64,000 bases of DNA, taken from positions 1 through 64,000 of the forward strand of contig JAQCFW010000007.1 in assembly GCA_027619225.1 (NCBI GenBank), written 5' to 3'. This stretch comes from Bacteroidota bacterium (lineage in GTDB: Bacteria > Bacteroidota > Bacteroidia > Flavobacteriales_D > Sanyastnellaceae). Every line of letters starts with the position of its first letter. Position 1 is the stretch's first letter. This document shows, piece by piece, positions 24,646 to 49,008 of this stretch. The notes below the pieces were generated by a model. The model saw only the letters and a list, made by a program, of their open reading frames with translations, made no database searches and was not told where the DNA came from. A program made the translations under genes and the position numbers.

Positions 24646-27369
24646 TCACTTTATTAGATATACTGAGCCACTTTTAGTTCTGGGATATCCAATTTGGTCC
24701 ACCCAAACCGCCTCCCAAATGTACAATCCATTGGGGCAGAAGTGCTGACCATCATCACCTTTTTCACCAAGCCAAGGGGTCTGATAATCAAGAGTTTCCC
24801 AAACCAATTCCCCCCATCTATTTATGACTCTCAATCTATAGGCGCTCGCCCCTAAAACTACTGGAAGCCAAACGTCATTTAATCCATCTCCATCAGGAGT
24901 AAAAGCCGTAGGAGCATAAAACACGGATCCACTCACGCTAACTTGTCCAGCAGCCGTATTCGTACACCCCGCATCATTTATAACAGTTAAGGTAATGTCG
25001 TATATGCCACCATCAGAATAAACATACTCTCCATCACATCCCTGAAGGCTCCCACCATCTCCGAAATTGTAATAACAATCTACATCTTGGTCGCCGATGT
25101 ACTCTATCTGCACAATAGGGTCTAAGATATCAACCACATTCGGCGTGACGTCAAAGGCCGCAAAAGGAATGGGATAGGTTGTGACTAAGTCTACCTCTAG
25201 TTTATTAAGGCTCCTTACACAGTATCCACCGGTAGTCATTTCAAGCTCAACGGGGAAATTTCCCGAGCCTGTATATATATGGACTGCATTAACTGAATTG
25301 GTTGTGCTTCCATCACCGAAATGCCACAAATATGTCGTTGCTGTATTTGTTGAGCTAAGGTTAGTGAAGGAGACTTGATGAGGTGGGCACCCATGAAGCG
25401 GGCCTGCTGAAAAATCAATTGTGGGGTCAGCAATAGCCTCGACTTGTTCGGAGTAATTTTGCTGACAGCCCTCAAGCCCAGGCACTTCTGCTGTAAGGGT
25501 GACGGTATAAATTCCTGGCTCATCGTATATCAGGTTGAGCACCGTGTTGTTGTTAACCGTAGCGGTGGTGATCTCTCCCCCAAAATCCCAAGTGTAAACA
25601 GTATTGACGTCCACAGAAGCGGTGCCAGTCATAGAAAAATTATGAGAGGAAAAGCAATCTGGATCAGGAACGTTAAAAATCGGTTCTAAAAGATATTGTA
25701 TTTCAACATTTGCCGTAGTAAAATCAGGACATGTAAACGGCGCGTATGCAGTAAGTGTTACAGTATATAATCCAGAGTCCGCGTAGGTAAATTCAGGATC
25801 AGGCTCTGTGGAAAAGTCGCCGCCGAAAGGTGAGCCGAAGTCCCACAGATAGGTTTCTGCGTTTGTAGAGTTGTTTTCGAAGGTAAAAGTGAGACCTTGA
25901 CAGAAGCCCGTTTGGTCCTCCATAGATGCAGAAGGCTGATCAGGAGCAATCCATGTAAACTCATTGTTCGCAGTACATCCATGGTTGTTTACAGTTAGGG
26001 TTATATTCCAGTTGTCATTGTTGCTAAAATCCACCCCGGATGGAGCTGGTATGTTCGCGGAAACAGGTGCTCCAGTGGGCCCGAAATCCCAAAAGTATGT
26101 GGCTTCATTGTTCATTGTGCCAGTCACTATGAAGTCGAAAGTTTCAGTCCCGAGGATACAATTAAACTCAGCCATCTCGATCACAGGGTCTAGCGGCATA
26201 TATACATCAAATATCTGCGAAGACGTGTCCGCACAAGGCCAGGTTGGATTGGCAATTAGCGTCACAATATAATTCCCCACATTTGGAAAAGTAAACAATG
26301 GCTCAAATTCAGTGCTAACGTCAGAATTGGTTCCCTCAACTCCGAAATCCCAAATAAAATCATCTGCATTGAGGGAGTTGTTATCAAATTGAAGCGTTTC
26401 CCCGATGCAAAGTTGCTCCGGTTGCTGAGGAGTCACCGCTGCTACGATATTTGCATCACACAGCGTTACATTAAACTGGAAATCCCTCAATACGCGTCCA
26501 AGTGATACTCCATCTCGAAATTCCTCTACGCAAATTCCCATGGCGTACTGCCCAGGAATAGTTGGTGTTCCAGTAATGAAACCAGTCACAGGATCAATTG
26601 CAAATGCTGGGTCCGAAGCGATAGGATATCCCGCAGAATACCCCCCTGCATAGGGAATGCTAGCGTACGGTGGGTTGTCAGGTGGATTGGGAGCAGGGCT
26701 ATCAGGTCCTGTGCCTCCGCCATTTGCTCCCCCTCCGTCAAAAGGAGCACAAAAAGAGTAAACAAGATCATCACCATCAGGGTCAATCGCTGCGTGGTCA
26801 AAGAAGAACCCGAAATTTGCACAAAGTGCAACAGGTGGAAATTCTTGGAAAACTGGAGAGCTATTCGGTCCATTGACCTCATCGTCAAACGGAATGTGAA
26901 TCGTAGCGGTCATCCCTGGATTGTCAGTGCCTCCAGAATTGGCGAGGTTGCTAATCGACGGATTTCTGCAACACCTCTGCCAAGCGATGTCGTAACCTCC
27001 ATTTGTGCCGAGCATTAAAGTTTTCGTGTATGTAGCCTCCTCTACGCAAAGTCCAGGAGGAGGTGAGCCACATGGATTCGTCATGATAACCGGCACGTTT
27101 TGGATAGTGCCGGCGTTTAAAAAAACGTCATGAACCTGTTGAAGTTGATTCGTTGCACTATAAAATACACCTAGATAAATGATGTCATCGAAGTCAGTTT
27201 GTTGTGTATTTGCCGGCCCGCATTCCCTATAAACTTTCAGCGTTATAAGGTAGTTTCCCCCTCCCAGATCTTCGTAGTACATCTCACTACCTATTAGGTG
27301 TGTAGCGCCTGCCTCAAAAGAAAAGGCTACTAAAAATAACCCTGTTATTATCTTAAATATCAATCTCAC
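24646..27369 (-). CDS. PKD-domain surface protein with gliding-motility-type (T9SS type B) C-terminus
   Basis: 907 residues from a GTG start, with a signal peptide (LIFKIITGLFLVAFSFEAGA). The N-terminal 300 residues include HLIGSEMYYEDLGGGNYLITLKVYREC, seen in many Bacteroidota adhesins. Several PKD/Ig-like repeats follow, each with a WDFG or WHFGDGS signature. The last 90 residues (YAPTAFTPDGDGLNDVW, INRWGELVWE, NGLYIWEAVW) are the gliding-motility-associated type B sorting domain. A large secreted or surface adhesin is likely. It is divergent from the helicase gene, with only 34 bases between the start codons. Confidence 0.9.
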   Translation of the reverse strand: MRLIFKIITGLFLVAFSFEAGATHLIGSEMYYEDLGGGNYLITLKVYRECGPANTQQTDFDDIIYLGVFYSATNQLQQVHDVFLNAGTIQNVPVIMTNPCGSPPPGLCVEEATYTKTLMLGTNGGYDIAWQRCCRNPSISNLANSGGTDNPGMTATIHIPFDDEVNGPNSSPVFQEFPPVALCANFGFFFDHAAIDPDGDDLVYSFCAPFDGGGANGGGTGPDSPAPNPPDNPPYASIPYAGGYSAGYPIASDPAFAIDPVTGFITGTPTIPGQYAMGICVEEFRDGVSLGRVLRDFQFNVTLCDANIVAAVTPQQPEQLCIGETLQFDNNSLNADDFIWDFGVEGTNSDVSTEFEPLFTFPNVGNYIVTLIANPTWPCADTSSQIFDVYMPLDPVIEMAEFNCILGTETFDFIVTGTMNNEATYFWDFGPTGAPVSANIPAPSGVDFSNNDNWNITLTVNNHGCTANNEFTWIAPDQPSASMEDQTGFCQGLTFTFENNSTNAETYLWDFGSPFGGDFSTEPDPEFTYADSGLYTVTLTAYAPFTCPDFTTANVEIQYLLEPIFNVPDPDCFSSHNFSMTGTASVDVNTVYTWDFGGEITTATVNNNTVLNLIYDEPGIYTVTLTAEVPGLEGCQQNYSEQVEAIADPTIDFSAGPLHGCPPHQVSFTNLSSTNTATTYLWHFGDGSTTNSVNAVHIYTGSGNFPVELEMTTGGYCVRSLNKLEVDLVTTYPIPFAAFDVTPNVVDILDPIVQIEYIGDQDVDCYYNFGDGGSLQGCDGEYVYSDGGIYDITLTVINDAGCTNTAAGQVSVSGSVFYAPTAFTPDGDGLNDVWLPVVLGASAYRLRVINRWGELVWETLDYQTPWLGEKGDDGQHFCPNGLYIWEAVWVDQIGYPRTKSGSVYLIK

Positions 27370-27403
27370 GCTATAAAGGTAAGCGTTACACTATCTTCAC
27401 GCC

Positions 27404-28663
27404 GTGCAAAAAGAGGAAGAAAAAGCAGTTCCCGTCCCATTTGTGGACCTGGAACTCCACCCCAATATAGAAGATGGGCTCGCAGCGATGGGATTTGAAA
27501 ACGCAACGCCTATTCAGGCTCTGGCGATTCCTCACATTCTTCGCAAAAAGGATATGCTTGGTATAGCCCAAACAGGAACAGGTAAAACCGCTGCATTCCT
27601 ACTCCCAACAATGGATATCATTCTTGATTCACCAGACAATGGGAAAGTAAAGGCTTTAGTGGTAGTGCCAACTCGCGAGCTCGCGATGCAAATTGATCAG
27701 GCAGCCGAGGGTTTCGGTTACTACACAGGTGTAACCAGTCTTGCTATTTATGGTGGAGGCTCTGGAAAAGAATTTTCTCGTGAGAAACAAGCCCTGAAGG
27801 AGGGGTCTGATATTGTTGTCGTAACCCCAGGGAGGATGCTTTCTCATCTCAATCTTGGATACGTTGACCTCTCTGAGCTTGAAGTTCTCATTCTTGACGA
27901 AGCAGACCGCATGCTTGATATGGGTTTCCATCAAGACATTATGCGTATTGCTTCTCATTGTCGCAAAGGTTGCCAAACCTTGTTATTCAGCGCCACCATG
28001 CCTGACAGAATGCGCTCTTTAGCTCATGAGCTCTTGAATGACCCAGTAACTGTCCAGCTGGCTCTTTCGAAGCCATCAGCAAATGTCAAGCAAAGTGCCT
28101 TCGTGGTGTTCGAACACCAAAAAGATGATGTCCTTGTCGATTTACTCAAGGATCTCAATGTTAAATCGGGCATCATCTTCACCTCTCGAAAACGAACAGT
28201 CAACCAGGTTGTTCGCGCCCTTCGTCAGGCCGGTCTCAAGTGCGATAAAATTTCATCAGACCTCAAACAAGAAGATAGAGAAAAAGTTATGCTTGGCTTC
28301 CGTCAAAAGATAATTCCTTTGCTTGTGGCTACAGATGTCGTATCTCGTGGAATCGATATAGATAGTATCGAAGTCGTAATAAACTACGACGTACCTCCCA
28401 ATGAAGAAGATTACGTACACCGTATAGGTCGTACTGCTCGTGCAGAACGCAAGGGAGAAGCATTCACCCTCATCACTCCTGATGATATGCGCCGATTTGG
28501 GAATATAGAAAAACTAATCGAACGCAAAGTTGATAAGCTCAAACTCCCTTCTCGAGTAGGTCCCGGTCCAGAATACGACCCTAATTTCCGTGGCGGAGGA
28601 CGAAGTGGAGGTGGGCATAATGGTGGAGGTGGAGGTCGTCATGGTGGAAAAGGTCGCCGATAA
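27404..28663 (+). CDS. DEAD-box RNA helicase, RhlE type
   Basis: 419 residues from a GTG; an in-frame stop at 27380 excludes a longer form. The Q motif region FENATPIQ, motif I AQTGTGKT, Ia PTRELA, motif II DEAD, motif III SAT, and the helicase C motifs including HRIGRTAR are all present. The C-terminus is a short Gly/Arg tail (GGGRSGGGHNGGGGGRHGG) that would bind RNA non-specifically. ATP-dependent RNA unwinding in ribosome assembly, decay or cold adaptation is expected. Confidence 0.95.
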   Translation: MQKEEEKAVPVPFVDLELHPNIEDGLAAMGFENATPIQALAIPHILRKKDMLGIAQTGTGKTAAFLLPTMDIILDSPDNGKVKALVVVPTRELAMQIDQAAEGFGYYTGVTSLAIYGGGSGKEFSREKQALKEGSDIVVVTPGRMLSHLNLGYVDLSELEVLILDEADRMLDMGFHQDIMRIASHCRKGCQTLLFSATMPDRMRSLAHELLNDPVTVQLALSKPSANVKQSAFVVFEHQKDDVLVDLLKDLNVKSGIIFTSRKRTVNQVVRALRQAGLKCDKISSDLKQEDREKVMLGFRQKIIPLLVATDVVSRGIDIDSIEVVINYDVPPNEEDYVHRIGRTARAERKGEAFTLITPDDMRRFGNIEKLIERKVDKLKLPSRVGPGPEYDPNFRGGGRSGGGHNGGGGGRHGGKGRR

Positions 28664-35656: not shown

Positions 35657-36427
35657 GTGGTAAAAAATATTGTAGCCCTTCTAACTAGGTTCATTCCAAG
35701 AACTATTCTACAAAGAGTTGCACATTTAGGGCTACAATCTATAGGTTGGATATATACAGGGAAGACGTTCGAGGATCCTATAGATGGTAGAACTTATCGA
35801 AAAATGTTGCCTTACGGCCGAGTACGTACGCGTCCCAATGCCTTAGCTCCCCATTCGCTATCCCTTGAACGTCACCGCGCTTTGTGGGTGTTTTTGTCAG
35901 AATTTACTGACTTTTTCACTTCTCCGTCTCGGATATTGCACATGGCACCCGAGTACTGTTTCATAAAACGTTTTCGTTCAATTTCCTCCCTAGATTACGT
36001 TACCGGAGATCTTGATTCTCCTTGGGCTGACCATCACTTCGATGTTCATTCCATTCCGTTCGAGGATTCTTCATTCGACATCATTATGGCAAATCATTTG
36101 ATGGAACACGTAGATGATGACAATGCTGTCCTTCGTGAATTTTATCGCGTATTGCGCCCTGGTGGATGGGGTGTGCTGCAAGTCCCTATTGATTGGACGA
36201 ATCCCAATACTGAAGAAGATAGATCCATTACTGACCCCGTTGAACTTGAGCGACTTTACTGGCAGCGTGATCACCTTCGACTCTATGGATACGAGGATTA
36301 TCCCAACAGATTGCGTTCAGCAGGGTTTGTTGTCGAAGTAATTGATATGAAGGAGGTGTTAGGAGCTTCCCGATATGAGCGTTACGCATTGGGAGGGGAG
36401 CAATGGGTGTTTGTAGTTAGGAAGTAG
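35657..36427 (+). CDS. Class I SAM-dependent methyltransferase
   Basis: 256 residues from a GTG start. Residues about 90-200 form a Methyltransf_11 domain: ILHMAPEYCFIKRF in the motif I position, LDYVTGDLDSP, then FDIIMANHLMEHVDDDNAVLREFYRVLRPGG, a classical motif IV-VI stretch. The glycine-rich motif I is atypical (HMAPE), as in a branch of SAM methyltransferases found in Bacteroidota. Substrate unknown; polar metabolite or cell-surface sugar are possibilities. It starts 16 bases after the upstream gene, so it may be co-transcribed with it. Confidence 0.82.
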   Translation: MVKNIVALLTRFIPRTILQRVAHLGLQSIGWIYTGKTFEDPIDGRTYRKMLPYGRVRTRPNALAPHSLSLERHRALWVFLSEFTDFFTSPSRILHMAPEYCFIKRFRSISSLDYVTGDLDSPWADHHFDVHSIPFEDSSFDIIMANHLMEHVDDDNAVLREFYRVLRPGGWGVLQVPIDWTNPNTEEDRSITDPVELERLYWQRDHLRLYGYEDYPNRLRSAGFVVEVIDMKEVLGASRYERYALGGEQWVFVVRK

Positions 36428-36748
36428 CAATTCCGATTTGTACATTTATTGAAAGAAGGCGCAGTGTGGTTGCGTGCAGACATTGTCGTCGCACAATTCT
36501 CTAAAATTCTATATATATCTGATTAACAGGTTTTTACTTGTTTTGACTGTGTTTACACGTAAGCACTAAATCTCCTAAAGTATATTTATTCTGAATGAAT
36601 AAGCTGACATGTCACCACACCTTAAAATTATTAGGGCCTGGTTTTACAGTTGTATTAACGATTATTTATAATTGTGCGACGACAGTGTAAGCACACAAAA
36701 CTAGTGTAGTGATTTACGATCCGACCGTAAGCAATCACCCATAGAGCT
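36428..36748. other. Non-coding region with an interrupted inverted repeat
   Basis: 321 bp without a convincing gene, between two convergent genes. Its main content is the 29-bp inverted repeat pair listed separately. The interior (36499-36669) is AT-rich and contains the small palindrome gtgtttacac (36549-36558). The octamer gtaagcac occurs both inside and at the right arm. Confidence 0.6.
36470..36698. repeat. 29-bp imperfect inverted repeats enclosing 171 bp (MITE-like)
   Basis: Left arm 36470-36498 and right arm 36670-36698 are inverted copies with 25 of 29 positions matching. The core cattgtcgtcgcacaatt (36481-36498) pairs with 36670-36687 at 17 of 18. No transposase gene lies inside. 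A possible 5-bp direct repeat agtgt flanks the arms (36463-36467 and 36703-36707), but it does not abut them exactly. A miniature inverted-repeat element or a large cruciform/regulatory structure are both possible. Confidence 0.55.
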
Positions 36749-37366
36749 TTAAACTTGAAGAATCTCAGTAACTTGTACTTCGTTGAGATTAGAAAGTTTC
36801 ACTGAAAAATCAGTTGCATCACGAAGTCGGATACTTGCCTCAAGCGAACAAGTTAGTTGAAAGTTGGTTTTTTGTGGAGTTACACCTGCTCGTTTGAGCA
36901 CGTTCATGACCGCACCCATTTGTGTATATGGGTACTTAACTAAATACGTTTGGGTGCGTATACATTTTACAATTGTGCCTGAGGCGACTGCATACGAGGC
37001 GGCAGTGCGGTAGGCACTAATGAGGCCGCCAACACCGAGTTTTGTTCCTCCAAAGTAACGAACGACAACGATGATGACATTTGTGAGCTCATTTGATTTT
37101 AGTACACCGAGTATTGGCTGGCCAGCCGTGTTTGCAGGCTCGCCGTCATCGTTAGAACGAAAAGATGCCGCATCATGTCCAAGTCGCCATGCATAGCAAT
37201 GATGTCTAGCGGCACTGTGAAGGACGCGTATCTCGGACAGGCGTTCTTTGATATCGGATTCAGATGAGACTGGAAACGCAAAGCTGAAATGCTTTGACCC
37301 CTTTACCTTGTATAGACCTTCTGAAGGGTTTTTGAGAGATAGAAACGTGTCGTCTTTATCCTTCAA
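36749..37366 (-). CDS. YigZ/IMPACT family protein (UPF0029)
   Basis: 205 residues from a TTG start that overlaps the upstream PorT-like stop by 11 bases; no nearer ATG precedes the conserved core. The N-terminal domain has HHCYAWRLG, SNDDGEPANTAGQPIL and VVRYFGGTKLGVGGL, the UPF0029 signature. A C-terminal DUF1949 domain follows. Eukaryotic IMPACT inhibits GCN2 and bacterial YigZ is linked to translation or proline-peptide metabolism, without a settled biochemical role. Confidence 0.9.
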   Translation of the reverse strand: MKDKDDTFLSLKNPSEGLYKVKGSKHFSFAFPVSSESDIKERLSEIRVLHSAARHHCYAWRLGHDAASFRSNDDGEPANTAGQPILGVLKSNELTNVIIVVVRYFGGTKLGVGGLISAYRTAASYAVASGTIVKCIRTQTYLVKYPYTQMGAVMNVLKRAGVTPQKTNFQLTCSLEASIRLRDATDFSVKLSNLNEVQVTEILQV

Positions 37367-38078
37367 AACAGATTGAGAAAATGTAAGAGCGAGTACGAAG
37401 TGCTTCGATGGGGTTTGCGTAATCGCTGTCGTCTGGGATGAGTACGTTTATTAAACCGAGCTCGGTTTTTAACTCTAAGGCAAGTTTGAAGAAAGGAAGG
37501 AAAATGTCAATTCCGCCACCAAGATCGATAGAGTAGTTGGTTGCTTGAATTCGGAGGATATCATCGCTTTGCAGTTGTTGGTTTACATCTTCTTGAGATT
37601 GCATATCCCGACTGAATTTAATCCCTATAAGTGAGTAAGCTGCAAAATTTACGATCCTGTCAGTGCGGATTTTAAGAACGAGTGGAATGTCAAGGTTTAC
37701 AGACTCCGTCCTTCTGAGTATCTCATTTGTATTCGCAGGATTGGGAGATGTACCCTGGGCAAATGTGTAGTTTAACCCTCTATCCTGAAAGCTTAATCCA
37801 GGGATGAATCTCAGTTTAAGGTGGCGCCCAAGATTAAGCGATGCGAGAAGGGCGAGGTTGAATCCTCCTTGAGGTGTGTTTGCTATTCCATAAAGTCCAG
37901 TCGCAAATGTAGAATCTTGCTTTAAGTCAAACAAGAAATCGGATGTATTGCCTGATATGATAAAGCCGAAGTGGTAGGGTTTGTTGTCAAATGAGGCAAG
38001 ATTCTTACGACCTGTTTGGGCAAAAGACGTAAGAGTCAAAAGCCCAAAAGTGATAAAAAGTAGCAGTATTTTCCTCAT
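37356..38078 (-). CDS. porT: PorT/SprT-like T9SS-associated outer-membrane protein
   Basis: About 240 residues from the ATG at 38078, chosen because it begins a signal peptide (RKILLLFITFGLLTLTSFAQ). NLASFDNKPYHFGFIISGN and the alternating strands that follow (LKLRFIPGLSFQDRGLNYTF, VNLDIPLVLKIRTDR) fit the eight-stranded PorT-type beta-barrel. PorT/SprT is needed for type IX secretion and gliding in this phylum, and several T9SS clients are encoded in this window. A generic outer-membrane beta-barrel is the alternative. It is upstream of yigZ and downstream of the DUF4199 gene. Confidence 0.7.
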   Translation of the reverse strand: MRKILLLFITFGLLTLTSFAQTGRKNLASFDNKPYHFGFIISGNTSDFLFDLKQDSTFATGLYGIANTPQGGFNLALLASLNLGRHLKLRFIPGLSFQDRGLNYTFAQGTSPNPANTNEILRRTESVNLDIPLVLKIRTDRIVNFAAYSLIGIKFSRDMQSQEDVNQQLQSDDILRIQATNYSIDLGGGIDIFLPFFKLALELKTELGLINVLIPDDSDYANPIEALRTRSYIFSICFEG

Positions 38079-38088
38079 AATAACTAAG

Positions 38089-38667
38089 TTAACGAGTTTT
38101 GTCAGGATTTTGTTGCGGCATAACCCAAACTTTTGTCCAAAGTAAGCTAGCCACAAAGGAAATAAAAATTCCTACCAGTAGATATACCATCAATGTTAGT
38201 GAGATTTGGGTCTTCGCAGCGTAGAAGATTTCTACCCCCTCTTGCTGAGAGATTATCCATTCTGAGAGGCTCGCGTTATTTGGCAAGTTTCTCTCAGTAA
38301 TGTGGTTTAAATACTCTTCTTCTGAGGAGAAAGTGGTAGAAATCGTGTCTAAAACAGATATGAATCGAGCGTGAGTTGCATCTTTCATAATCACATGGTG
38401 CCAAAGTCCAACAACTGCAGTCGCCCCAACAGCGTACCCTATGACAGTTTTTGCAACATGCTTAAATCCGTCAAGGAAATCGGGGGTGGGTCTGAGGGTT
38501 TGTATCCCATTATAGGTTGCTAGCAGTGCGTAGGTCATTAAGGCCGTTGCATGAAACATAAATCCGTACTTGAATGACTGCTCAAATGATACGTTGCCTA
38601 CAAGTAAGTACTTAAAAAGTATCCACCCTACGAGTGTGGCCAGTATAATTGTGAGGTTGTTTTTCAC
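38089..38667 (-). CDS. DUF4199-like inner-membrane protein
   Basis: 192 residues from a GTG start. Four hydrophobic segments (about 5-23, 38-52, 75-92 and 155-178) with a hydrophilic loop of about 60 residues before the last, the topology of DUF4199 proteins of Bacteroidota. No catalytic motif. It lies 6 bases after the rho stop and 10 bases before the PorT-like gene. Function unknown. Confidence 0.6.
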   Translation of the reverse strand: MKNNLTIILATLVGWILFKYLLVGNVSFEQSFKYGFMFHATALMTYALLATYNGIQTLRPTPDFLDGFKHVAKTVIGYAVGATAVVGLWHHVIMKDATHARFISVLDTISTTFSSEEEYLNHITERNLPNNASLSEWIISQQEGVEIFYAAKTQISLTLMVYLLVGIFISFVASLLWTKVWVMPQQNPDKTR

Positions 38668-38673
38668 GATGGT

Positions 38674-40497
38674 TTACCCGTTCATAGAATTTAAGAATTC
38701 TTCGTTGTTGCGAGTTGATTCAATGCGTCCCTTCACAAATTCCATAGCTTCTACGGGGTTCATGTCGGCAAGGTGCTTTCTTAGAATCCAAATTCTTTGG
38801 AGAGTCTCCTTATCTAAAAGTAGATCTTCACGACGGGTACCTGATGACTGGATGTCTATCGCTGGGTAGATTCTTCGATTGGCTATTTTTCTATCGAGCA
38901 TAAGTTCCATGTTACCTGTTCCTTTAAACTCTTCGAAGATTACCTCATCCATTTTTGAGCCCGTGTCAACCAGTGCAGTAGCAATAATTGATAAAGAACC
39001 GCCATTCTCGATATTCCTAGCAGCTCCAAAGAACCGCTTAGGTTTTTGTAAAGCGCTGGCTTCAACTCCACCAGAAAGGATTTTCCCAGATGATGGGCTA
39101 ACTGTATTATAAGCACGAGCTAAGCGAGTAATAGAATCAAGAAGTATACAGACATCATGTCCGCACTCTACCATACGCTTCGCTTTCTCTAAAACGAGGT
39201 TCGCGATACGTACGTGTCTGTCTGCAGGTTCGTCAAAAGTTGAAGCAATAACTTCCCCATTCACACTTCGCTTCATATCTGTAACCTCCTCAGGTCTTTC
39301 ATCAATCAATAAAATAATTAAGTAAACTTCTGGGTGGTTTATTGAAATAGAGTTGGCTAGGTCTTTTAACAACGTTGTTTTACCAGTTTTAGGCTGGGAA
39401 ACGAGCATTCCCCTTTGGCCTTTACCAATCGGAGAGAAGAGGTCCATCAAACGCATCGAAATACCACCGCGAGCAGTACTTAAATTGAACTTTTCTTGAG
39501 GGAATAGTGGCGTTAGGTACTTGAAAGGAACTCGGTCTCTAATCCACTCGAGTGATCTGCCGTTTACCGATTTAACACTTATAAGTGGGTAGAATTTTTC
39601 TCCAATACGAGGAGGGCGAATGCCAGCCACTACTGTATCTCCGTTTTGGATAGAATACTGTTTCATCTGTTTAGAAGAAACATAAACATCATCAGGAGAA
39701 TTGAGGTAGTTGTAGTCGGCAGATCTTAGAATAGCGTAGCCTTCAGACTGAACCTCCAAAACGCCTTCTATTTCTACAAGATTGTCAAAATTATAACCGT
39801 GCTCTTCTGGCTCACTTAAGAACTTATCTTGCTTATTGCGGTTGCGATTTTGGTTAGGGTTGTTTCTGTCTGCTCTTTCGTTACGGGCCTTTCTATCATC
39901 GTCGCGTTTGTTGTCACGTCTGTCGTCACGTCTGTCGTCACGTCTGTCGTCACGTTTGTCGTCACGTTTGTCGTCACGTTTGTCTTCACGTTTGTCTTCA
40001 CGTTTGTCTTCACGTTTGTCTTCACGTTTGTCTTCACGTTTGTCGTCACGATTGTTGTCGCGTCTGTTATCGCGTCTGTCGTCGCGCTTGTTATCGCGTC
40101 TGTCGTCGCGCTTGTCATCAGAACTCTTTTCAGTTTGACTTGAGACGCTAGACTTGTCAGAATCGTTGGTGTCTTCGTCTTTTTGTCTTTTGCTGCGACG
40201 ATCTCTTAAACTGTCACCAGAACGGCGTTCAGTTGCTTTTGAGTTGCTGCTCTCTCTCGGTTGACGCATTTCACTTGAATCACGTTGCACACGTTTAGTT
40301 GGCGCTTTTGTATGCTCAGTCTTATCATGTGGCTTGTTGATATTCTTCTTATTAGTATTAAGCAATGCTTGCTCATCTAAAATCGAATAAACCAGGTCTT
40401 GTTTCTTGAGTTTGTCTACTTTTTTAACTTCAAGTTTTGAAGCTATTTCTCGAAGTTCGGCGACCTTCTTGCCGTTTAGTTCTAGGATGTCGTACAT
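38674..40497 (-). CDS. rho: Transcription termination factor Rho with long charged repeat insert
   Basis: 607 residues from the ATG at 40497, preferred because [19 protein letters not shown] begins the Rho_N (SAP-like) domain; a longer form from 40566 would add 23 unrelated residues. After Rho_N comes a roughly 170-residue Arg/Asp/Lys-rich low-complexity insert made of RDDKREDK-type tetrapeptides. The cold-shock-like RNA-binding domain ([13 protein letters not shown]) and the RecA-like ATPase with Walker [12 protein letters not shown] follow, then [13 protein letters not shown] and the Q/R-loop regions. It terminates transcription at Rho-dependent sites. Long N-terminal inserts are known in Bacteroidota Rho and may drive RNA binding or condensation. 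Confidence 0.96.
39896..40118 (-). repeat. 12-bp tandem coding repeats in rho
   Basis: About 18 copies of a 12-base unit (plus strand tcgtcacgtttg / tcttcacgtttg and variants) encode a run of [12 protein letters not shown] and RDNR tetrapeptides. Two internal blocks (about 39909-39950 and 39985-40040) are almost perfect, so the array is probably prone to slippage in multiples of four codons. Confidence 0.9.
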
Positions 40498-40591
40498 CAG
40501 GGGGGAAAATGAAATTCTATTAGGGAAATGATGTCCGGTCAACCTTATTTCGTTGCCGCTATACATCCTGCATCCTTGTTTGAGGACTTGA

Positions 40592-46578: not shown

Positions 46579-49008
46579 CTAATCTCCAAGACAAATTGCC
46601 GATTGTGAATGTATCAATATCATTCCGTTCTTTAAAACCTCGGCTTTTCCAGCAAAAATAGATTTCCCATCTGCGCTGACCTCAACGGACTCTTTAGATT
46701 TATTAATGTAAACGACACTTTCTTCACCTAGATACTCTCTAGTTATCTTAAGTAGAGTATGGGAAATCGCTTCGATATTGCAAGAACCATACATGAAAGA
46801 CATCCTCGAACGGCGAAGTTTAATCCACTCAGAAGTCCAAGAAAGAGTATTTCCCTCTTCAAGAGAAAGGTCATTAAACCTCATTACACGCCGGTTGTCG
46901 GGATCATTGCCACCCACATCAGCTATTTCATCACCGTAATAAATGCATGGAATACCAGGCATCGCCATGAGATAAGACATAAGCATTCTCATTTTCTCAA
47001 AACCGCCACCACCTTTTATGTGCTTAATGTCATGGGTCCAACCCTCAAATTTCCCATTCCCTTCAGGAACTACACCACCATCAGCGAGAGAGGTAAAGCG
47101 GATGCGGTCTTGGTTTCCTGTAATATTTCCCATAAGGTTATGTGCTCCATAAGATTTCAAAGACTCGCGAGCGGTGGAGGCCAGGTTTTCAAACGATCCT
47201 TCATCAAATGCGAGGGCAGCCACAGCGGCATCGTAGTGGTTGAAATCGAATTGTGCGTCTAACATGCCCGAAGAAATGTAGCTTCTTATCAAAGATGGAC
47301 TGCCATAAGTCTCTCCAATTTGGAAAAGGCGGCGTCCCCGCGTGCGATTCAGCACTTTCATTTTCGTCGTAAGAGTTCGCCAAAACACTTCAGGTATATG
47401 CTTCGTTGCATCGTGCCTAAAGCCATCAACCGCAGAGTTTTCCACCCACCACATTGCCGAGTCTGTCATAGCGGAGTACACCTCTGGTCGTGAGAGATCC
47501 AAAGTAGGAAGGAAGGTATCGAACCAAGTGGTGAGTCTGTGATCGTCCCACCGTTCGATATTCATAGATCCGTCTGGCAGGTAAAGGTCAGTAGCCCAGT
47601 CAGGGTGTTTTTTGTATATGGGGTGGTCCTCATGGACGTGATTCGCTACGTAGTCTAAGATTACATTCATATCTGCCGAATGTGCGAAATCTACAAATCC
47701 ATTAAACTCAGCTCTAGAACCGAAAGCTGGGTCTATCACGGTATTGCTGATGGGCCAATATCCATGAAAACTTGAAAATTTACTTGAAACAGAAGTCCGT
47801 GGATCAGACCAATACCCCCAAGCACCTTTTGCATTCTTAGTAATGGGACTTAGCCAAACAGTATTTACGCCAAGTCTCCCTAAATATCCATCTACAATTT
47901 TTAAAGCCACCCCGGTGAGATCTCCTCCTTTGTGATTTGCAATGGGCATGATATCCTGATCATCAACGGGACTATCATTGTCTGGCATTCCATTGTTAAA
48001 CCTATCTATCATCAAGAAATACATGACCATTGCGTGCCAATCCCTTCTATCTAAGTCCTGTGTGGAAATAATAGGTTCTCCATATTCAAGTGGAATTAAT
48101 ATCTCTGGTCCTCTCACACCATCATTTACAGGAAATAACCTCAGGTGTGACCTTCTCAATGACTTTGCCGAATTGGGGATCTTTAAAGTAGTATTACTTA
48201 GCAGACCTAGTTCAATTTCAGCGATGAATTGATCTTCCCATATGCACCAAACATCAACGCCGTAATCACCTTCGATTTCAAGATCTGAATCTTCCGATTT
48301 AATCACTTTAATAACAGGGGGCAATGAAGCTTGGGTGACTACTACAAGTGAATTCCACCCACCTAGCCCGTTGGGAATAGAGTCTTGGTTGGTGGGGTCT
48401 AAGCCCCAGGCATTGTCTGTTATTATTTGGTAGGAATGGTTCCCCAAAGGCAAGTTAAGCGTCACAGACCAAATCCCGTTTTCACCTTTCTCAAGAGGAG
48501 TTTTCCAAGAACTCCAGCCGTTCATCGAACCGGCTAGATGAACACTGCTCGCTTTTGATATTCTTCCTCCATGAGTTTCAATTGTAATCTCATGCATCTC
48601 AGACGCGAATACTAGGATATTTCTTTGAGCAGAGTTGGATCCTTGCTTTACATAGAGTGAAAGCATCCCGATTCCATTGGTGGGCTGTTTTGATATTATT
48701 GCCTCATTATAACTGTTGAATTGAATCCTTTCAGGGTGGGTCATTTCATGGAAATACACGACAGAATCCACGCGCTCCCCATATAGTAAGTAGTCTTTTA
48801 AGTTAAGACTCGTTGAATCTGATTTTAACTGTATAGGAAGTGTGGGTCCCCACGTGCTCCATCCATCACCTTCACGAAGCTTTTTCACACCTTCTATTAC
48901 TGTCTCAGATGATCCTTGCTCGTGATTTGTTGTTGTGCTTGAGCAATTAGAGAGCACAATGACTAAACAACATACAGAAGCTAAAAGGAAGAGTCGAGTG
49001 GTTTTCAT
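46579..49008 (-). CDS. GH13 alpha-amylase/neopullulanase-type lipoprotein
   Basis: 809 residues. A lipoprotein signal (LLASVCCLVIVLSNCSS) anchors it, probably at the outer membrane. A CBM48/AMPK-like module follows (about 150-220, VHLAGSMNGWSSWKTPLEKG). The GH13 catalytic domain (about 330-760) has region I DYVANHVH, region II VDGFRHDATKH with the nucleophile Asp, region III QIGETYGS with the acid/base Glu, and region IV GNQDRIRF, where the usual His of NHD is Gln. It should cleave maltodextrins or pullulan and corresponds in position to SusG/SusA-type enzymes. Ten bases separate it from the upstream accessory gene. Confidence 0.9.
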   Translation of the reverse strand: MKTTRLFLLASVCCLVIVLSNCSSTTTNHEQGSSETVIEGVKKLREGDGWSTWGPTLPIQLKSDSTSLNLKDYLLYGERVDSVVYFHEMTHPERIQFNSYNEAIISKQPTNGIGMLSLYVKQGSNSAQRNILVFASEMHEITIETHGGRISKASSVHLAGSMNGWSSWKTPLEKGENGIWSVTLNLPLGNHSYQIITDNAWGLDPTNQDSIPNGLGGWNSLVVVTQASLPPVIKVIKSEDSDLEIEGDYGVDVWCIWEDQFIAEIELGLLSNTTLKIPNSAKSLRRSHLRLFPVNDGVRGPEILIPLEYGEPIISTQDLDRRDWHAMVMYFLMIDRFNNGMPDNDSPVDDQDIMPIANHKGGDLTGVALKIVDGYLGRLGVNTVWLSPITKNAKGAWGYWSDPRTSVSSKFSSFHGYWPISNTVIDPAFGSRAEFNGFVDFAHSADMNVILDYVANHVHEDHPIYKKHPDWATDLYLPDGSMNIERWDDHRLTTWFDTFLPTLDLSRPEVYSAMTDSAMWWVENSAVDGFRHDATKHIPEVFWRTLTTKMKVLNRTRGRRLFQIGETYGSPSLIRSYISSGMLDAQFDFNHYDAAVAALAFDEGSFENLASTARESLKSYGAHNLMGNITGNQDRIRFTSLADGGVVPEGNGKFEGWTHDIKHIKGGGGFEKMRMLMSYLMAMPGIPCIYYGDEIADVGGNDPDNRRVMRFNDLSLEEGNTLSWTSEWIKLRRSRMSFMYGSCNIEAISHTLLKITREYLGEESVVYINKSKESVEVSADGKSIFAGKAEVLKNGMILIHSQSAICLGD

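Follow-up and report, generated by a model that had tools for sequence, protein, structure and literature searches.

The inverted repeat at positions 36470–36698 is the conspicuous outer part of a short, non-coding DNA element with four regularly placed palindromic sites, and five further arrays of the same plan, missed by the original prediction, are present in the source genome (G000, a 2.03-Mb draft in 49 contigs), whose gene content suggests a member of the Bacteroidota. With about as much confidence as doubt, we read the array as a small, probably non-autonomous mobile element that serves as docking array for a putative dimeric protein.

Architecture of the arrays

In the window, i.e., the whole stretch of 64,000 bp analyzed here (bases 1–64,000 of the 88,681-bp contig C31), the arms at 36470–36498 and 36670–36698 pair at 25 of 29 positions, so that the predicted inverted repeat is real. 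A base-composition model predicts only about 0.0003 such pairs (spacer 3–400) for the whole window, which is clearly corroborative of the claim that the match is too good for chance, and a repeat search extends the arm pair to 52 nt at 73%. Also as predicted, the arms (GC 0.48 and 0.45) are GC-richer than the enclosed 171 bp (0.29; window 0.42), the latter being free of ORFs of at least 60 aa and overlapped by six ORFs of 25–33 aa, and the flanking genes are convergent, with a methyltransferase gene (35657–36427, plus strand) ending with its stop at 36427 and a YigZ/UPF0029 gene (36749–37366, minus strand) with its stop at 36749. The earlier description had missed the palindromic nature of each arm as well as a further two palindromes within the enclosed 171 bp. 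Hence, four sites are found in succession: a 23-bp palindrome as outer site of the left arm (A left, 36472–36494, plus strand, GCGTGCAGACATTGTCGTCGCAC), a 22-bp palindrome with its center 74.5 bp from that of A left (B left, 36547–36568, plus strand), B right (36599–36620, minus strand) with its center 75.5 bp from that of A right, and, inverted, the outer site of the right arm (A right, 36674–36696, minus strand). An arm model (R1), which includes both of these arms, matches at 36455–36567 on the plus strand and 36599–36708 on the minus strand. No Rfam family and no tRNA were found in the 64-kb window. A sigma-70-like promoter match (11 of 12) at 36643–36672 points outward from the right arm. 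Elsewhere in the window, the Rho protein (38674–40566) has an N-terminal insert that is long, abounds in repeated D-K-R-E units and is overlapped by spurious ORFs in other frames.

By searching G000 with the arm and inspecting the resulting loci on other contigs, six arrays were established, all with the order A-B-B-A and thus 24 sites in total. Besides the array in the window (36472–36696), three are located on contig C33 (C33a, 27279–27615; C33b, 38062–38273; C33c, 48487–48700) and one each on C49 (49797–50022) and C9 (2854–3057), with a core from A to A of 204–337 bp. Site A approximates GTGYGNNKACANTGTNNNCGCAC (23 bp) and site B GTGYGNTKACAYGTNANCACAC (22 bp), and both share a half-site of about GTGYGNTKACA. 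Invariant in all 12 arms are G5, A9-C10-A11, G14-T15 and C19 of A and G5, T7, A9-C10-A11, G13-T14 and C18 of B. Outside A, position -14 is G in 10 of the 12 arms and A in two, and spacer position +47 is C in nine and T in three. The weakest A, the left one of C33c with five mismatches to the pattern, and the left B of the C49 array were placed by eye. Allowing up to two mismatches, the A pattern has 10 matches in G000, nine of them arm sites and the tenth, on contig C42, recurring in other genomes, and between zero and four matches in each of 39 relatives.

Spacing, folding and the arms of single copies

The distances between the centers of A and B (74.5, 75.5, 84.5, 74.5, 86.5, 75.5, 75.5, 76.5, 85.5, 75.5, 85.5, and 87.5 bp) fall into two classes one helical turn apart, 74.5–76.5 bp in seven arms and 84.5–87.5 bp in five. 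No arm has a distance of 77–84 bp (P about 0.0006 if distances were uniformly distributed within the range seen), and none of 20,000 random distance sets was equally phased at 10.5 bp, both tests taking the observed range as given. This spacing fits proteins sitting on one face of double-stranded DNA. The B-B distance, on the other hand, is free (22, 30, 30, 37, 52, and 152 bp), and the spacers are unrelated between copies, with an identity of 0.586 over 66 arm pairs versus 0.576 for shuffles. Moreover, arms from one and the same array are no better matched than arms taken from different ones, neither in A (92 of 138 matches within arrays; permutation mean 93.2, P 0.64) nor in B (87 of 132; permutation mean 88.8, P 0.70), and the arm match of 0.83 in the C31 array is the upper end of a spread starting at 0.48. 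The helical phase, the unrelated spacers and the lack of greater likeness within an array together argue against both a conserved RNA stem and an invertible segment.

The former had been proposed as a structured non-coding RNA, here with a long closing stem, and was initially favored by the strong folding z-scores of the window element (-5.3 on the plus and -3.8 on the minus strand). All six arrays give negative values on both strands, and the A-A stem appears in nine of the 12 predicted folds. The comparison of the six arrays nevertheless reversed this judgment, as inverted repeats fold on both strands whatever their role, neither fold of C33c and only one of the two C33b folds contains the A-A stem, the arms do not show co-variation, the distance between A and B follows the DNA helix, and Rfam gave no match at the arrays, with only three tRNAs, away from the arrays, in the four stretches holding the other five. 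An RNA of this kind is thus considered very unlikely. Even less credible is the suggestion of paired recombination sites, here taken as the borders of an invertible segment such as an invertible promoter. The arms are indeed inverted, and five promoter-like matches in the C31 region compare with 1.5 expected. However, arms belonging to the same copy would be expected to become alike through inversion, which is not seen, and in four of the six cases the genes are convergent, leaving nothing downstream to switch. An IS remnant, also among the original suggestions, finds no support from the enclosed 171 bp or the neighboring genes.

Empty junctions and target duplication

Sister strains lacking the element had been suggested as informative, and at the four junctions compared (C31, C33a, C33b, and C33c) relatives without the array were indeed found. 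Of 22 loci of relatives fetched for C31, 13 were checked, and all of them have the same two genes as border the array, separated by -4 to 143 bp compared to 321 bp in G000, the longest gap belonging to G004 and holding one dyad of different sequence. At C33b, both genes are kept in eight of 10 relatives with gaps of -39 to 35 bp versus 309 bp, and at C33a in eight of nine with 0–38 bp versus 441 bp. At C33c, the glycosyltransferase gene abuts or overlaps the acyltransferase gene in five of six relatives (-32 to +4 bp). In G000, in contrast, the glycosyltransferase gene retains a 3' end ahead of the array, while beyond the array, beside the acyltransferase gene, this 3' end occurs once more in decayed form, with 37 of 49 aligned columns alike between the two copies. 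The decayed copy, found between the array and the acyltransferase start (L088, about 2740–2830), is closer to the relatives' DNA than the copy within the gene.

Alignment with the relatives gives an inserted unit of 37 + 214 + 40–57 bp at C33c, i.e., about 291–308 bp, and a target duplication of 63–81 bp. A direct-repeat test exceeded the maximum of 200 shuffles at this locus, albeit narrowly (35 versus 33), and at none of the other five, the test having little power for short or decayed repeats. With regard to terminal repeats, all six copies bear inverted A-B arms, but the C33c insert extends 37 and 40–57 bp beyond A, where a clear common sequence is not seen. Judging from C33c and from the gap being longer than in relatives, both C31 flanks, from the methyltransferase stop to A (36428–36471) and from A to the YigZ stop (36697–36748; no strand assigned to either), are probably part of the inserted unit as well.

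The predicted MITE is borne out in part, namely in the inverted arms, the existence of several copies and the empty junctions in relatives. Nevertheless, a burst of movement by a classical MITE family, followed by decay, is an unlikely explanation, as the spacers do not show similarity between copies, a transposase was not identified next to the arrays, a target duplication is found at one of the six loci, with no short one detected by a test of little power for these, and no other full arms that could bound an autonomous partner were detected in the 49-contig draft.

Genomic setting

The arrays are found between convergent genes in four cases and co-directional genes in two, and never between divergent ones (P 0.007–0.010 with a crude gene caller, for which at least one called 1.4-kb 'gap' looks like coding sequence). 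Half of the six arrays are confined to a 21.4-kb section of contig C33 (P 0.006). Neighboring genes encode methyltransferase, YigZ, CysZ-like, AroA, HolA, DUF1016_N, oxidoreductase, ABC-F, SulP, cupredoxin-like, glycosyltransferase and acyltransferase proteins, and no recombinase is present among the genes adjoining the arrays. The DUF1016_N protein beside the C49 array (L089:3075–3782) matches an N-terminal family only and is possibly truncated on the side facing the array. Along C33, the GC skew at four-fold sites falls unevenly from positive to negative at about 56–85 kb (L149–L151), possibly marking the replication terminus. The change is weak, with three of the six arrays located ahead of it, and a dif-like site was not found.

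Placement at gene ends, together with conservation of the sites only, favors an architectural role. Conceivably, though in our view this is rather doubtful, the array serves the host by binding a nucleoid, segregation, supercoiling or transcription-boundary protein at A and B, which would hold a loop between gene ends without any movement today. In line with this, conservation extends to sites and helical phase and not to spacers, no array lies between divergent genes and three cluster on C33, and REP-like dyads with a similar core occur in the sister genome G004. On the other side stand the empty state of the same junctions in all close relatives compared, the lack of detection elsewhere in the genus, the target duplication at C33c, and the absence of isolated sites from 281 kb of sequence, although such sites would be expected of a regulator or nucleoid protein.

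Distribution of arrays and isolated sites

The search for further copies of the arm thus yielded six arrays with 12 full arms, all in G000. For the whole unit, in contrast, a DNA search with the entire junction found nothing but the window copy (one of 40 genomes), because the spacers are not conserved, and it required site patterns and the arm model to reveal the other five. Model R1 recovers the 12 full arms of G000 with E-values up to 5.7e-15, having been built from these arms and containing them by construction, and its weak matches in G000 outside the arrays are on C29 (E 0.14) and C41 (E 0.27). In the 13 other genomes of the genus, nothing was found below an E-value of 0.02 (best match 0.024). 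Among 399 genomes of the order, G000 included, R1 gave two further partial matches (L137 and L138), both in DNA that looks coding by eye, under stricter filters by which nine of the 12 G000 arms are reported. The gapped A-B pattern was found in one of 114 family genomes, G000 itself, where four of the 12 arms match. Scans of viral contigs gave 0, 1, 0, and 0 matches, and those of phages and plasmids none. Given how strict the patterns are, and how degenerate the sites, more distant versions with different site sequences could have escaped such searches.

Several single matches were discarded. The one from the viral contigs (L146) and one in a wider collection of genome contigs, from Parafrankia, do not match R1, and those of relatives (L030–L032, L067, and L079) as well as two in G000 (L041 and L044) lie in DNA that looks coding by eye and is devoid of a second arm. 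When seven single-match loci of relatives were searched with R1, L075 alone gave a partial match (E 0.0009, positions 52–117).

For isolated sites, four G000 contigs (281 kb) were scanned with a position weight matrix made from the same 24 array sites. Outside the arrays, no score exceeded 14.6, compared to at least 20.3 for the array sites and a shuffle maximum of 17.5. Leave-one-out scores, however, drop as far as the background range for the weakest sites (A 16.6, B 12.5), and a highly degenerate isolated site could therefore be missed.

Comparison with known systems

According to PMC3733652, REPs and BIMEs are palindromes of small size in extragenic DNA. Most are located downstream of genes, with convergent gene pairs a frequent setting, and they often occur as opposite-facing pairs, are in some cases species-specific, and carry a tetranucleotide tag, GTAG or CGTC, at one end of the REP. 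The arrays resemble them in being extragenic palindromes at gene ends. REPs, however, are single or paired hairpins at high copy number, whereas here 24 sites form six four-site arrays at fixed helical spacing, and no isolated array-type site scores above 15 in 281 kb. By eye only, the aligned arms do not contain GTAG, while CGTC is present inside A in some of them. Likewise, inverted arms and empty sites are shared with MITEs, from which the arrays differ in that their copies are unlike one another.

The sites called matS, which are bound by MatP, are dispersed and extragenic and have a palindromic GAC-RNY-GTC core (GTGACRNYGTCAC). The core of A, KAC-ANT-GTM, resembles this, and the arrays are dispersed and extragenic too, but consist of 22–23-bp palindromes in groups of four, and the exact matS core has no match in the four G000 contigs. 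In G004, single REP-like dyads such as CGAGGTGACGCTGTCACCTCG occur in intergenic DNA, with four in a 185-kb sample (L170:5896, L183:3288, L184:7465, and L184:14456), two of which had already been noticed before sampling. Three of the four contain the exact matS core.

In working principle, two other systems would seem nearest. IR/DR non-autonomous transposons, for example of the Tc1/mariner type, carry an outer and an inner transposase site at set spacing in both of their inverted arms. The arrays share the inverted arms, the outer and inner sites at set spacing and the discrete insertion, but have palindromic sites, spacers unrelated between copies and no known transposase. In the res sites of resolvases, palindromic subsites differ slightly in the spacing of their half-sites, and the distance from one subsite to another may vary in steps of full helical turns. 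Correspondingly, the palindromic A and B differ slightly in half-site spacing and their distances by one turn, whereas the arms are in inverted order and no resolvase was found, the likeness being one of description rather than of res sequences.

Discussion

The array is best placed among the small extragenic elements. As the preferred explanation, a mobile element with docking sites would work as follows. One dimeric DNA-binding protein, or two related ones, would occupy A and B by recognizing the common half-site. With A and B about seven or eight helical turns apart, the proteins would be positioned on the same face of the helix and may bend or loop the DNA in between, and the two arms would be paired into one complex. 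Most likely, the purpose is movement, with a recombinase or transposase supplied from elsewhere, a role favored by the discrete insertion and the empty sites. If only the sites and their helical phase matter, it would be plain why only these are kept. What the sequences directly display is the symmetry of the sites, their shared half-site, order and phase, the inverted arms and the presence of arrays where relatives have none; binding protein, looping or bending, arm pairing and mobility are deduced from these. Against mobility, neither a transposase nor a recombinase is linked to the arrays by the genes adjoining them, a target duplication is seen at only one of six loci, albeit at C33c supported by alignment to relatives, no copy was found outside G000 in the collections searched, and palindromic sites are unusual for transposon ends.

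A further difficulty concerns age. Between G000 and its nearest relative, G010, four-fold sites agree at 81% in aroA and 77% in yigZ, and G010 is devoid of the C31 and C33b arrays. Copies made after the split of these two genomes should share most of their spacer sequence, but share none beyond the level of shuffled DNA, which counts against recent copying. Judged by position, the arrays appear young, but judged by sequence they appear old, which is contradictory. Most simply, six already-diverged elements entered from an unsampled pool, implying a reservoir, although none was found in the collections searched. Otherwise, spacer sequence would have to evolve far more rapidly than neutral sites, or the arrays would have been cleanly lost from G010 and all other relatives.

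As a minority reading, which we judge improbable and put forward tentatively, the phased four-site array would be a kind of its own, i.e., a class of genetic element in its own right. Single, unrelated-looking units would enter at gene ends, keeping sites and phase and no other sequence, and would behave as mobile docking or architectural modules rather than as copied transposons. In the literature screened (titles and abstract openings), no element of the A-B-B-A plan was described. Small extragenic elements are usually recognized by similar sequence, whereas the copies found here are recognizable by site order and helical phase and are consequently missed by searches for overall similarity. 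Should a recombinase be behind the arrays of G000, they would represent a compact multi-site system for moving DNA; if it is an architectural protein, they would act as a species-specific chromosome organizer.
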